From positions 1-46,361 of IMG/VR virus record IMGVR_UViG_3300048571_000019: a DNA stretch of 46,361 nt, one strand, 5' to 3'. This DNA comes from a virus. Below, piece after piece: positions 9,417 through 20,085 of the stretch (its first letter is position 1; every line of letters begins with the position of its first letter). The translations under genes and the position numbers were made by a program. The notes below the pieces were generated by a model, which was given only the letters and a program-made list of their open reading frames with translations, had not been told where the DNA came from and ran no database searches.

Positions 9417-9753
9417 CGTCCTAGGCGGATTAGCGGGAAAGCTGGCAGATGCTTACACGGCAAAGGCCAATGCGCAGACCGATGAGGCGCGTATTGCGGC
9501 TGATGTGACAATTGCGCAACTACAGGCAAGGCAAGCTGCGGTGATTGCAGGAGGGAGGTGGATTGCGCCAGTTCAGGCGGCTTTTGCAGTTATGTTCTTG
9601 ATTTACTACGGTAAATTGCTGATTTGGGATAAGGTTCTTGGTCTGGGCGTCACGGATGGGTTGTCACCAAGTCTGGAAAATCTGGGAATGATTGTAATTT
9701 CTTTCATATTTTTGCAGGCGGGTGTAAAAGGGGTGTTGACAGGTCGGCATTGA
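9403..9753 (+). CDS. Putative holin-like membrane protein
   Basis: 116 residues from GTG at 9403 (GGGG six bases upstream); an in-frame GTG at 9391 would add four residues. An amphipathic Ala-rich helix (residues 8-50, LGGLAGKLADAYTAK, IAADVTIAQLQARQAAV) is followed by two hydrophobic segments (WIAPVQAAFAVMFLIYYGKLL and LGMIVISFIFLQAGVKGVL). This resembles holin proteins with three hydrophobic regions found near lysozymes in alphaproteobacterial phages and gene transfer agents. It closes the lysis cassette. Confidence 0.65.
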   Translation: MIWFNVLGGLAGKLADAYTAKANAQTDEARIAADVTIAQLQARQAAVIAGGRWIAPVQAAFAVMFLIYYGKLLIWDKVLGLGVTDGLSPSLENLGMIVISFIFLQAGVKGVLTGRH

Positions 9754-9764
9754 TGGGGTAGAAC
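9736..9764 (+). promoter_or_regulatory. Promoter before the micropeptide and structured RNA
   Basis: TTGACA, 17 bases, TAGAAC. It overlaps the last codons of the preceding membrane protein and would start transcription near 9771, serving the 35-codon ORF at 9804 and the structured region behind it. The -35 box is perfect; the -10 box is 4 of 6. Confidence 0.5.
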
Positions 9765-9803
9765 GAATGCACTGAAACAAACAAAACCTTGGAGGGTTTA
9801 GAT

Positions 9804-9911
9804 ATGGTCTTCGCTTTTATCGCACTTTCGTTCTTCGCTGCAATCGACGCTGGCATGGTTCCACCTGATGCAAACTGGCATCCGACTAAGGGCGTTTCCG
9901 CGTCCGAGTGA
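9804..9911 (+). CDS. 35-residue hydrophobic micropeptide
   Basis: A short ORF with a strong ribosome site (GGAGGG, 7 bases before ATG). The peptide starts MVFAFIALSFFAAIDAG, which could be a membrane or signal segment, then a short hydrophilic tail (MVPPDANWHPTKGVSASE). The strong ribosome site and isolated position behind a promoter support real translation. It could be a small lysis-related peptide or a leader peptide for the following RNA; neither can be proven. Confidence 0.5.
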   Translation: MVFAFIALSFFAAIDAGMVPPDANWHPTKGVSASE

Positions 9912-9948
9912 TTAAGACAGGGGCGCGGCTGTAACGCGCAAAACTATG

Positions 9949-10032
9949 ACTGCGGTGTGATGTAATTGGTGAACGGTAAACCAGCCCCATTGCGGGTATT
10001 CCTAGATGCAGGTTCGAATCCTGCCCGCAGTT
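9949..10032 (+). ncRNA. tRNA-like element (T arm and acceptor clear, other arms not)
   Basis: ACTGCGG (9949-9955) pairs perfectly with CCGCAGT (10025-10031). This is stacked directly on a perfect T arm, GCAGG-TTCGAAT-CCTGC (10008-10024), with the GGTTCGAATCC B-box. Following the 5' acceptor strand are T8-G9 and an AATTGGT D-loop-like stretch. The 52-base middle is the length seen in class II (Leu/Ser) tRNAs. However I cannot form a proper D stem or a five-pair anticodon stem with a seven-base loop and T33, so it may be a degenerate tRNA or the tRNA-like part of the surrounding structured RNA. Confidence 0.45.
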
Positions 10033-10436
10033 ACTAAATATCCGCATTTGTGGCGGGTTGCATTTGAACTAAGGGTTAGATCACCTGCGTAGCAAAGTAT
10101 AGCCATAGGCATCAATGCAATCCACCAGAAACGCGGTATCATAAATTGTATGTATGCGCTTGACGTTGCCATCGGCGATTCCGACGAGTTAATTCTGCGC
10201 TACGTCAAAATATCGGAATAAGGCAATATGCCGCGTTTCTACCATTGCCCGATGACCGGGTGACAATACAAGGTGCATAGACCCCGTTAATGCTAGTTAG
10301 GGTTTCTATGCGGTTGTGGCCGCGCTTGATCCGTCGCGGGATATAAGTCTGTATGGACCGGAAGTTGTAAGCCGGACATCTCACAGGGTAAAATGCATCG
10401 GGTCCAATCGGTGTTGCTAACGGATTTTCAATTATT

Positions 10437-10464
10437 AAACCCCGTCTTTTTAGGCGGGGTTTTT
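10437..10464 (+). terminator. Strong Rho-independent terminator
   Basis: AAACCCCGTC (10437-10446) pairs with GGCGGGGTTT (10453-10462) around a six-base TTTTTA loop, followed by T residues. It ends the structured non-coding region and isolates the next gene cluster. Confidence 0.85.
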
Positions 10465-10595
10465 CATGTTACAATGCACATGCGGTTTTCCCGATTGTAT
10501 CCCGTGATGATACCTCCTAGTCAAAGACAATCGGAACCTTTACAACCTTGATAAAATGTGATTAGGTGTAAGCATTGCAACCTATGGAGGGTTAA

Positions 10596-10859
10596 ATGCT
10601 TAAAATCGCCTCACTATTAACCATCATTGCCGCGCCCGCTTATGCGCTGGACTGTATGCCCCGAGCCGACGCATACGAACAACTGGACGCCAAAGGATAT
10701 GAGCCTGTATTTATTGGAGACGCAGAAGCCGCGACAATGGTCGTTTGGGTGCATCAAACAGAGGGTTGGATTACGATTATTGACACGCATGACGGGCAGT
10801 CTTGTCTAGTTGCGGCAGGTCTTGATTGGCAGTTTCGCGCGCTAGGTGATCCGGTATGA
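10596..10859 (+). CDS. Secreted small protein of unknown function
   Basis: 87 residues. The N-terminus MLKIASLLTIIAAPAYALDC is a textbook signal peptide with a probable cut after AYA, which would put the mature protein in the periplasm. The mature part has two cysteines (CMPRADAYEQL and QSCLVAAG) that could form a disulfide, and a beta-rich middle (MVVWVHQTEGWITIIDTHDG). GGAGGG six bases before ATG gives strong initiation. In the 5' leader CCTCC (10513-10517) could pair with this GGAGG, a possible but unproven translational switch. Function unknown; superinfection exclusion would be one idea for a secreted phage protein. Confidence 0.75.
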   Translation: MLKIASLLTIIAAPAYALDCMPRADAYEQLDAKGYEPVFIGDAEAATMVVWVHQTEGWITIIDTHDGQSCLVAAGLDWQFRALGDPV

Positions 10860-11080: not shown

Positions 11081-12174
11081 CATCATACAATGAAGAATAC
11101 CTAACAAGTCCAAAGAAGTCATTCAACGTTAACGAATACGCATCGCATCATGGTATTACAGTGCAAGCTGCATGGTCAAAGCGTAAACGCGCCAAAGCCC
11201 GCGCTACAGTCGATCCAGCAATCACCCGCGCAATGTCCGCTATCGGCACTAACATGGTTCCTAGCGTTGTTTGGGATAAGACGCAGCCGGGTTATAGTGT
11301 TCTTCTCAGGCCATCGGTTGCGGATGCTTCATCAGTTGATTGGGCGGAAGTGTTTTCAAACATTCCAGCGTATCGGCCTAATCCAGTTTCACCTATCGGC
11401 AATGATCTATTTGCCGTGTATCCACTCTATGACGCTCATATCGGCATGTTGGCTTGCGGCAAAGAAACGCGCGGGCAAAACTATGATCTTAAACTTGCCG
11501 CAAAAGATATGTTGCAAGCATTCATTGACGTATCCGCCCTAGTCCCTTGCGCCGATAGGGCTATGATCATCCTTGGTGGTGACACTCTACACATTAATGA
11601 CGAAAGCAAAGAAACTCTAGCATCTAAACATAAGATGGACACTGACGGGCGTTATGAAAAGGTAATTGACAGCGCAATCGAGATGGTTTGCCATTCTATC
11701 GAGTATCTTTGCGAAAGACATGCAAAGGTTGAGGTTGTCACTATTCGAGGTAACCATGATGAAAACTCGCACGTTGCATTAAAGGTCGCGCTAAAGCAGC
11801 GTTACCGACTAAGTGATCAAATCAGCTTTCCAACTGTTTCTGGCATGGATAAATCGGAAGTATTCTGGACACGGCACGGCAAGTCATTGGTCGCTATTCA
11901 TCACGGCGACAAGGCCCCGCCACAGCGCCTTTGCATGATCATTGCAGACAAGTGCGCAGAATGGTCTAACACAACTGACAGGCACGTTTTGACGGGCCAC
12001 AAGCACACGTTGCACGTCCAAGACTTCCCCGGCGTTACGCATCACACATTGCGCGCGTTTGCACCTCCAGACGCTTACGGTTCTATGTTTGGCGGGCGAC
12101 GGTCTTTGACTGCAATGGTTTTTGACGCTAAGAAGGGTTTAATCTTAACAGCACATGAACCTATTCTAAGATGA
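11077..12174 (+). CDS. Calcineurin-like metallophosphoesterase with N-terminal helix-turn-helix
   Basis: 365 residues. An N-terminal HTH-like stretch (FNVNEYASHHGITVQAAWSKRKRAK) precedes a calcineurin-fold phosphoesterase with the metal-binding blocks in order: DAHIG, GGDTLH, GNHDE, HHGD and TGHKHT. These supply the Asp, Asn and His ligands of a dinuclear metal site that hydrolyses phosphomonoesters or phosphodiesters. Similar proteins occur in many phages near replication or accessory genes. The substrate (nucleic acid end, cyclic nucleotide or protein) cannot be read from sequence. The HTH part suggests it works on or near DNA. Confidence 0.88.
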   Translation: MTSYNEEYLTSPKKSFNVNEYASHHGITVQAAWSKRKRAKARATVDPAITRAMSAIGTNMVPSVVWDKTQPGYSVLLRPSVADASSVDWAEVFSNIPAYRPNPVSPIGNDLFAVYPLYDAHIGMLACGKETRGQNYDLKLAAKDMLQAFIDVSALVPCADRAMIILGGDTLHINDESKETLASKHKMDTDGRYEKVIDSAIEMVCHSIEYLCERHAKVEVVTIRGNHDENSHVALKVALKQRYRLSDQISFPTVSGMDKSEVFWTRHGKSLVAIHHGDKAPPQRLCMIIADKCAEWSNTTDRHVLTGHKHTLHVQDFPGVTHHTLRAFAPPDAYGSMFGGRRSLTAMVFDAKKGLILTAHEPILR

Positions 12175-17565: not shown

Positions 17566-20085
17566 TTACTCGCAAGACCTGATCAACTGCCCGGTTTCAG
17601 GATCAACGCGCATCTCACATGCGCCGTAATCCTCCGCCGTTTCTTCTTTCACGCTCAATACACTGCCCGTCACATCATTAGGCCTATACGTCGTGCATCC
17701 TTTGCAACCCAACTCCCACGCCTGCAAATACACATTCTTAAAGTCATCGAATGAAATATCTTCAGGGCAGTTAATAGTCTTGCTAATAGAGCTATCCACC
17801 CAACGCTGAGCAGCAGCTTGCATACGTACGTGATCAATCGGCAATAGCGTCTGCGCCGTAACAAAACTATTCGGCAATGGCTCGCCCGGCCTTGCGCGTT
17901 TCCATTTATCAACGGCATAATCGCGCACAGTTTCAGTGATCTTTGACCCGTCTTTCTGCAAAACCTTGCGTTCATATTCCAGCGCGAAAATAGGCTCAAT
18001 CCCGCTGGATACGTTACCCGCATACAACGAGATCGTTCCAGTTGGCGCAATCGATGTCAATAATGCGTTGCGAATGCCACAAGTTTCAATCATACCGCGA
18101 ATGTCTTGATCCATGCCGATCATGTTACCGCTGTCAAGATATTTATCCGCGTCAAACAACGGAAACGCGCCTTTCTCAATGGCTAGGTCAATGCTGGCAA
18201 GGTATGCCATCCGCGCAACAAACTTCATCAGTTTATGAATCCACTCAACGCCTTCATCTGACCCATAAACAACGCCGCCAAGAGCCATTGCGTCCGCAAC
18301 GCCTGTTACACCTAGTCCAATGCGCCGCTTGGCCTTGGCCTCGGCTTCCTGCTCGGGCAATGGAAACCGAGATACGTCCACGACGTTATCCATCATGCGC
18401 ACGGCAGTTCTAATCGCATTTCCTAGCATCTTATAGTTGATTGAAAAATCATCATTCAAGAATGCCGGAATGTTCATACTGCCAAGCAAGCAAGCCCCGT
18501 ATGGCGGCAATGGTTGCTCGCCGCAGTTATGGACAACAATAAAGTCCGCAATAAAGTTGTGAGTATCTTCAACCGTCATATCATAAACGTCAGATACGGG
18601 GCCTTGGGATATAGATAAAACACAAGCAGAATTTTGATTTTTCATGTTTGATCGCAAATATTCCGGCATAGGAATAACGTCCTTAGATCCATGATTAGAC
18701 CAAGGAGGACTTACAAAACAGTGCTTTCCATAAGTCTCGTTATAATCATTAACCATATGATTATTATCGCACTCATACCTAGTTAGTGTTGCGTGTTTTG
18801 AGTGATCAATAACTTCAAAATTATCAATGTTATTGTTATATGTATTACCATCAATATGATGGACATCATCACTTTCTGACAGTTCACCAAATACTGCACC
18901 TGCAATCATTCTGTGTTCCATGCGGTACGCTCTATTATCTTCAGTAGATAATTTCACACCAGAGTATGCAGCACCTCTCCGCGCCCTACATAGATGAATT
19001 AGTTTGTCGCCAATCTTCAAATCTTTGGCTTCCACCCAACCAACTCGATCTACAAAAATCTTATGGCTTGGAGTGCATACTAATTCTTTGCCAGATCTCA
19101 CTTTAATACGGATAGTTTCAGAATTCTTCTTAGATACCCAAGATGCAGTGGCCTTTTTAATACCAAGAGAACCATCTGACAACATAGTATAAACCATAGT
19201 TGGTTCGGTAATATCCTTAATCTTTACACGGCCATTAATTGTTTCCACAAGGCTATCAGGATGCAGACACGGATTAGTCGCCGCAATGGTTTCGCAATAT
19301 GACAGGTTGTTAGCCTTGTTAATCCGGTCAATAAAGATCACTCCGGGTTCAGCATAAGCATAGGTCGCTTGCGTGATATGATCCCACAATCCACGCGCCG
19401 AAACAGTGCGATAAACCTTGCCTTCAAACACAAGATCAAACTGCGCGTTATCTTTAACCGCCTGCATGAAATCATCCGTCACCAATACAGACAAGTTAAA
19501 CATGCGAAGCCTGCTAGGGTCGCGCTTGGCGTCGATAAACTTGAAAATGTCGGGATGGTCAACTCGCATGGTCGCCATCATCGCGCCACGTCTAACACCC
19601 GCTGACATGATGGTTTTGCACATTGCATCCCATACGTCCATAAACGACAACGGCCCGCTAGCAGTCGCAGCAACGCCCTTTACAGGCGCATCAACAGGCC
19701 GCAACGTGCTAAAATCATAGCCAATACCGCCGCCTGCTTGCATGGTAATGGCGGCTTCTTTCAACGCGTCCATAATGCCTGACAAGCTATCTTGCACCGT
19801 ACCCATGACAAAACAGTTGAATAGCGTAACATTCCGATCAGTGCCAGCGCCCGCATTAATCCGTCCCGCCGGAATAAACTGAAAACGCTCTAGAACAGAA
19901 TAAAACTTATCGGCCCAAAGCGCGCGGTCTGTTTCAGGTTCTGACAATGCCCACGCAACACGTCGCCAAGTGTCTTGCACTGTTTTGTCGATAGGCGTTC
20001 CGTCTTGTTCCTTTAGACGGTATTTCATATCCCAAATCTGCTCGGCCATTGGGTTTTTAAATGGGTTATAGTTTGCGGTTGTCAT
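17566..20085 (-). CDS. nrdJ: Ribonucleotide reductase, B12-dependent class II type, interrupted by an intein
   Basis: 839 residues encoded, 591 after predicted intein removal. Ribonucleotide reductase converts ribonucleotides to deoxyribonucleotides. Matches to NrdJ include FNCFVMGTVQDSLSGIM, QAGGGIGYDFSTLRP, GVRRGAMMATM, HPDIFKFIDAKRD, NPCGEQPLPPYGACLLGS, RRIGLGVTGVADAM and PTGTISLYAGNVSSGIEP. No small subunit (NrdB) gene is seen, agreeing with a class II enzyme that uses adenosylcobalamin. The C-terminus carries two cysteines (GACEMRVDPETGQLIRSCE) suited to the redox relay. The intein occupies residues 273-520 and falls between P272 and the catalytic cysteine. Start ATG shares ATGA with the dUTPase stop. 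Confidence 0.92.
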   Translation of the reverse strand: MTTANYNPFKNPMAEQIWDMKYRLKEQDGTPIDKTVQDTWRRVAWALSEPETDRALWADKFYSVLERFQFIPAGRINAGAGTDRNVTLFNCFVMGTVQDSLSGIMDALKEAAITMQAGGGIGYDFSTLRPVDAPVKGVAATASGPLSFMDVWDAMCKTIMSAGVRRGAMMATMRVDHPDIFKFIDAKRDPSRLRMFNLSVLVTDDFMQAVKDNAQFDLVFEGKVYRTVSARGLWDHITQATYAYAEPGVIFIDRINKANNLSYCETIAATNPCLHPDSLVETINGRVKIKDITEPTMVYTMLSDGSLGIKKATASWVSKKNSETIRIKVRSGKELVCTPSHKIFVDRVGWVEAKDLKIGDKLIHLCRARRGAAYSGVKLSTEDNRAYRMEHRMIAGAVFGELSESDDVHHIDGNTYNNNIDNFEVIDHSKHATLTRYECDNNHMVNDYNETYGKHCFVSPPWSNHGSKDVIPMPEYLRSNMKNQNSACVLSISQGPVSDVYDMTVEDTHNFIADFIVVHNCGEQPLPPYGACLLGSMNIPAFLNDDFSINYKMLGNAIRTAVRMMDNVVDVSRFPLPEQEAEAKAKRRIGLGVTGVADAMALGGVVYGSDEGVEWIHKLMKFVARMAYLASIDLAIEKGAFPLFDADKYLDSGNMIGMDQDIRGMIETCGIRNALLTSIAPTGTISLYAGNVSSGIEPIFALEYERKVLQKDGSKITETVRDYAVDKWKRARPGEPLPNSFVTAQTLLPIDHVRMQAAAQRWVDSSISKTINCPEDISFDDFKNVYLQAWELGCKGCTTYRPNDVTGSVLSVKEETAEDYGACEMRVDPETGQLIRSCE
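18526..19269 (-). mobile_element. HNH-type intein in the reductase gene
   Basis: A 248-residue in-frame insertion (residues 273-520). It starts with Cys (CLHPDSLVET), has the splicing block B as LVCTPSHKI with the T-x-x-H pattern, and ends with block F/G (VYDMTVEDTHNFIADFIVVHN) followed by Cys+1 of the extein: all residues needed for splicing are present. Between the blocks is an HNH homing endonuclease (DVHHIDGNTYNNNIDNFEVI..HATL). The DNA is more AT-rich than the host gene (for instance 16 G/C of 60 at 18781-18840), as expected for a recent selfish insertion. Confidence 0.92.

Follow-up and report, generated by a model that had tools for sequence, protein, structure and literature searches.

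A structured RNA family absent from Rfam in uncultured phages and its possible tRNA-like role

The acceptor stem and T-stem of a tRNA together comprise 12 bp, and the put sites of phage HK022 and the EAR element are RNAs that give processive antitermination. Viral tRNA-like structures (TLSs) contain a pseudoknotted acceptor arm in which only N73-CCA and N1 are conserved, and Trp identity resides in the discriminator, the anticodon, and the first acceptor pair (PMC9976931). The phage RNA GOLLD has been described as having a conserved 3′ part and a variable 5′ part, with a linker that sometimes holds tRNAs (PMC12286853).

Here we analyzed a non-coding region in the window, that is, the whole 46,361-nucleotide stretch of DNA corresponding to positions 1 to 46,361 of IMG/VR virus record IMGVR_UViG_3300048571_000019. 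The window carries tailed-phage genes for a terminase large subunit, portal, head protease, tape measure, tail fibre, endolysin, exonuclease, ribonucleotide reductase, primase, and helicases, and the RNA region is placed 3′ of the lysis genes and 5′ of a small secreted-protein-like gene and an exonuclease gene. In addition, the ribonucleotide reductase large-subunit gene (17566-20085, minus strand) contains an HNH endonuclease-like stretch at residues ~308-440, which may be an intein or other insertion. blastn searches of annotated phage records found no stretch similar to the RNA region or to its conserved part, module W, and two other loci with W had no blastn match at high identity among annotated phages.

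A first-pass annotation had read positions 9912-10464 as a non-coding, structured RNA associated with tRNAs, either GOLLD, ROOL, a divergent relative, or a new class. This interpretation is partly supported. We found no credible ORF at 9912-10464, a structured, tRNA-associated phage RNA is what the data describe, and the new-class option survives. Like GOLLD and ROOL, the RNA is phage-encoded near tRNA genes, large, and modular, and has a conserved 3′ part; in contrast to them, W is only ~100 nt, often stands alone, and matches no covariance model. The identification with GOLLD or ROOL is not supported: in the window, every Rfam model stayed below its cut-off, the only matches above cut-off in the relatives were real tRNAs, and the GOLLD and ROOL models gave no match at the gathering cut-off in the window or relatives and none at E<=5 for 9700-10650. 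HEARO, OLE, tmRNA, and group I intron, which had also been listed for checking, gave no Rfam or ARAGORN match.

A modular region downstream of the lysis genes

Relatives of the window were found via the upstream holin-like protein. At the equivalent place, loci L002 to L007 carry non-coding stretches assembled from exchangeable blocks, and real tRNA genes lie between the blocks in L003 (Trp), L004 (Leu, Leu, and Trp), L006 (Thr), and L007 (Met). The proposed single region is structured, but it is a string of exchangeable modules and not one uniform fold (Table 1), with degenerate or real tRNA genes plugged in between the modules. We infer that the predicted transcript of the region is a modular phage RNA that codes for no protein and is of the tRNA-island kind. 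Single-sequence folding of the region was mildly unusual (z = -2.2; 2 of 100 shuffles). Since this is only slightly better than shuffled sequence, the case is made by comparison with relatives, and the strong evidence for structure is comparative; compensatory base changes across homologues, the check that had been suggested for this RNA, are abundant.

Table 1 Features of the RNA region in the window.
Feature	Positions	Strand	Remarks
Promoter-like TTGACA-17-TAGAAC	9736..9764	+	Consensus only; scan did not list the box
Short ORF (35 aa) before the RNA, with ribosome-binding site	9804..9911	+	Similar short ORFs in L002, L004, L005, and L044
5′ hairpin A (GCGCG/CGCGC)	9920..9939	+	Sequence kept in L002-L005
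Module T, degenerate tRNA-like element without CCA	9949..10032	+	27.5 bits vs Rfam tRNA cut-off of 29
Module U, two-state domain	10042..10240	+	5′ strand 10042-10061, middle strand 10117-10136, 3′ strand 10231-10240
Module V, two hairpins (10246-10265 and 10275-10311)	10246..10311	+	Exchangeable among relatives
Module W, new RNA family	10312..10435	+	Model R1, 80.5 bits for window copy
W P1	10320-10324/10335-10339	+	5 bp, covarying
W crossing loop	10325-10327	+	3 nt
W pseudoknot	10328-10334/10420-10426	+	7 bp
W P2, stem of varying length	10349-10386	+	
W P3	10395-10400/10409-10414	+	6 bp; UCCA at 10403-10406
W G-CCA position	10427-10430	+	TTTC in window copy
Intrinsic terminator	10437..10462	+	11 pairs

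Several elements of the earlier drawing were recovered, namely the GCGCG/CGCGC hairpin, the 7-pair stem at 10275-10281/10305-10311, and the strong terminator. The TTGACA-17-TAGAAC promoter held in part: the box is present, but the 35-aa ORF separates it from the RNA. The short ORFs before the RNA modules in the window and in the relatives listed in Table 1 encode ~33-36 aa behind a strong ribosome-binding site, and their products share a hydrophobic start and a P-x-x-x-G-R-P-V-V-T-A-S-E-like end. Likewise, the proposed tRNA-like element is real but degenerate. This element, module T, keeps the acceptor and T arm of tRNA (Rfam RF00005) and lacks a CCA and a proper anticodon arm; its score lies below the gathering cut-off, and ARAGORN called no tRNA in it. 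Module T also occurs in L003 and L044, and L004 has a version whose middle is longer; L002 and L005 lack it.

Some features of the relatives are recorded here as separate observations. A further non-coding block (GTCGCCTGAATGTTTACAGGATAGCTAGG...) is common to L004 (~6200), L005 (~4480), and L044 (~2690), where it is found close to the end of the RNA region; the window lacks it. The phage tRNA-Trp genes of L003 (5995-6068) and L004 (6117-6190) have apparent acceptor-stem mismatches. L003 carries a truncated W immediately 5′ of its tRNA-Trp gene, and L004 has no W.

Module U was found in 15 copies in 12 records, all built from three strands that form covarying helices. Helix A joins the middle strand to the 5′ strand over ~19 positions; in it, 85.6% of cells were paired versus 71% after shuffling (0 of 1000 shuffles), and the changes at two conserved 1x1 mismatches are linked (G.G with U.U and C.A with U.U). 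In 13 of 14 copies, the final 8-10 nt of the middle strand also pair with the downstream third strand (helix B). Because one strand is shared, helix B cannot coexist with the outer part of helix A. Both helices are intact in the window copy. Two stems drawn earlier correspond to them: the 13-pair stem at 10127-10139/10228-10240 (AGAAACGCGGUAU/AUGCCGCGUUUCU) has helix B as its 10-bp core, and that at 10055-10067/10112-10123 forms the inner portion of helix A. The pair-type count of module U was not above that of shuffles, since the copies fall into few sequence types. With native sequences only, the computed energies of the two states differed by 2.3 kcal/mol or less in 8 of 12 copies, including that of the window. 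Module U resembles a conserved switch between conformations, or else an exchange of strands as the RNA folds.

Structure and distribution of module W

A 19-nt segment from the 3′ block (CGCGCTTGATCCGTCGCGG) was present in 16 viral stretches, several of them with unrelated gene contexts. Further pattern scans added members, one of them (L093) through a pattern allowing a long insert, and the covariance model R1 detected exactly one W copy in each of 22 IMG/VR phage records. W therefore occurs in at least 22 uncultured phages, in gene contexts that differ widely.

When 13 W copies were aligned, three pairs of P1 and all six pairs of P3 showed changes on both sides. In P1 and P3 taken together, 99.1% of cells were paired against a shuffled mean of 83.4, and double-changed cells numbered 31 against 9.1; none of 500 shuffles reached any of the measures, and sliding the partner columns by 1-3 destroyed the signal. 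RNAalifold predicted P1 and P3 independently and without help. The pairing includes many G-U but no A-C pairs, indicating that the plus strand is the RNA. The W loop GAUCCGU is complementary to a downstream ACGGAUC. This pseudoknot is nearly invariant, and every copy that has a full 3′ strand retains its complementarity; L006 shows a compensatory change, the only one, from U-A to C-G (GACCCGU/ACGGGUC). The pseudoknot is thus well supported, the single compensatory event being strong but not final evidence. P1, P3, and all 7 pseudoknot pairs are intact in the window copy.

When isolated intact W copies of L043 and L052 were compared with Rfam, nothing was found at E<=10. The exact W pattern, which would miss about half of the known members, had six matches in 84,980 cellular species, all of them chance matches in coding sequence. 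In 385 genomes from the class of an alphaproteobacterial MAG, model R1 gave one weak match with P3 and the pseudoknot broken; neither search yielded a convincing cellular copy. When two pseudoknot positions were relaxed to N, only coding, non-member matches appeared, indicating that the exact members are not due to chance. Matches set aside as coding or otherwise due to chance were L033, L035, L039, L045, L048, L049, L054, L055, L057, L058, L061, L062, L113-L118, L120, and L122-L124. As a self-cleaving ribozyme or known riboswitch, W was rejected for want of a family match, and searches of a literature collection found no description of such an RNA. Whatever its role, W is a selected RNA family absent from Rfam.

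The positions of W in the records vary. In the window group, it lies 3′ of lysis genes alongside other RNA modules; in L052 and L053, it is convergent to lysis genes; and in L038, it lies behind an HNH gene. W sits within large tRNA arrays in L051 and L093, and ends ~10 nt or less from a tRNA gene in L003, L034, L041, and L059, this spacing of about 5-10 nt being like that between tRNAs in L004. In L042, W is upstream of a packaging operon whose large subunit is a Terminase_6 protein, and L032, L043, L047, and L060 are related loci; no tRNA was found in these five records.

Two observations concern tRNA genes near W. The big array around W in L093/L128 (record G021) includes a tRNA whose anticodon is CUA; ARAGORN calls it Pyl, and it is probably an amber suppressor. 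In L038 (~11270-11320), a tRNA 3′ half (GGTTCGAATCC...CCGCACC) lies between the HNH gene and W; it may derive from a tRNA that an insertion has split, or be what remains of an attachment site.

Possible tRNA mimicry and rival explanations

W invites comparison with the TYMV-type TLSs of plant RNA viruses. Both have a pseudoknotted acceptor-like arm ending in N-CCA, the pseudoknot of W being the 7 pairs described above, and both present an invariant anticodon-like triplet in a hairpin loop. They differ in that W lies in DNA phage genes and TLSs in RNA genomes, in that W has two extra hairpins inside the pseudoknot and a loop of 8-9 nt, and in that there is no sequence or Rfam similarity. G-CCA stands immediately 3′ of the pseudoknot strand in 19 of 22 copies, although two of the W scans set no condition on the 3′ end; it is lost in the window copy, L003, and L044. 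UCCA in the P3 loop is invariant in the 20 copies that have P3.

We give roughly 45% probability to the reading that W works, as a predicted transcript, as a tRNA-like structure. P1 and the pseudoknot are able to stack because there are zero nucleotides between them and the crossing loop has 3 nt, and the stack would form a 12-bp imitation of the acceptor plus T-stem that bears the G-CCA tail in most copies. Such a helix could be acted on or bound by tRNA-handling enzymes, namely RNase P, the 3′ trimming and CCA-adding enzymes, and EF-Tu, and perhaps by a synthetase such as TrpRS. W carries G73, UCCA, and G1-C72, and the invariant UCCA together with the G-C end pair suggests a putative Trp identity. 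The closeness of W to tRNA genes in many records also fits this reading. In the window copy, where the fold is kept without G-CCA, either CCA addition would be needed or the copy may be partly decayed. The fuller version, in which DNA phages use a pseudoknotted mimic, probably of tRNA-Trp and often placed in tRNA islands, as a means of engaging host tRNA enzymes or anti-phage tRNA nucleases or of acting as a decoy for them, is more doubtful.

Several findings stand against mimicry. W is not a cloverleaf although it often lies among tRNA genes, and its P3 loop has 8-9 nt instead of 7, with no T-loop; P3 as a tRNA T-arm was ruled out, as the covarying register gives an 8-nt loop. The base after CCA (A) is also conserved, so that conservation passes the expected end. 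Moreover, the pseudoknot has a single compensatory event, W of the terminase group has no nearby tRNAs, a real tRNA-Trp is also present in L051 and L093, and three copies, that of the window among them, lack G-CCA. If W is a tRNA mimic, the pseudoknotted acceptor arm of plant RNA viruses also evolved in DNA phages, and the tRNA islands of phages hold not only tRNAs, which is relevant to the question of why phages have tRNAs at all. W can be used at once as a covariance model, and the U domain is a further conserved RNA element, one with two states.

The best of the rival explanations, though an unlikely one, is that W acts in cis, as an RNA modifying RNA polymerase for processive antitermination, so that long untranslated RNA stretches and late operons are read through terminators. 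Like put and EAR (epsC), W is a short structured RNA near promoters: promoter-like boxes, read by eye, precede it closely in L051 and L059 and by ~100-150 nt in L056, L032, and L043, and it precedes packaging operons or tRNA arrays. However, W is often distal: in the window group, the promoter is ~550 nt away and the terminator follows W directly. Moreover, antitermination leaves G-CCA and the tRNA adjacency unexplained, and Rfam gave no EAR match, put being compared by description only.

Less probable still is that the whole region forms one large ornate RNA of independent origin that acts like GOLLD or ROOL, as a self-assembling scaffold carrying tRNAs. The conserved 3′ part, the variable 5′ part, and the tRNAs inside would fit, but there is no Rfam match, the modules shuffle freely, and W occurs without U or T in many records. 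We regard as equally improbable that the region of this phage is a decaying tRNA island, in which tRNA and RNA-module remnants joined by recombination have little present function. Module T, which falls under the tRNA cut-off and lacks CCA, the missing G-CCA of the window W, and the rearrangement of modules between close relatives are in line with decay; against it, the window keeps P1, P3, and the 7 pseudoknot pairs of W, as well as both U helices and the terminator. Finally, one copy per record and a location upstream of terminase genes in five records would suit a DNA-level packaging or recombination site whose inverted repeats only resemble RNA, but this is very improbable, as the many G-U and absent A-C pairs indicate strand-specific RNA pairing and the positions of W range from lysis genes to tRNA arrays.
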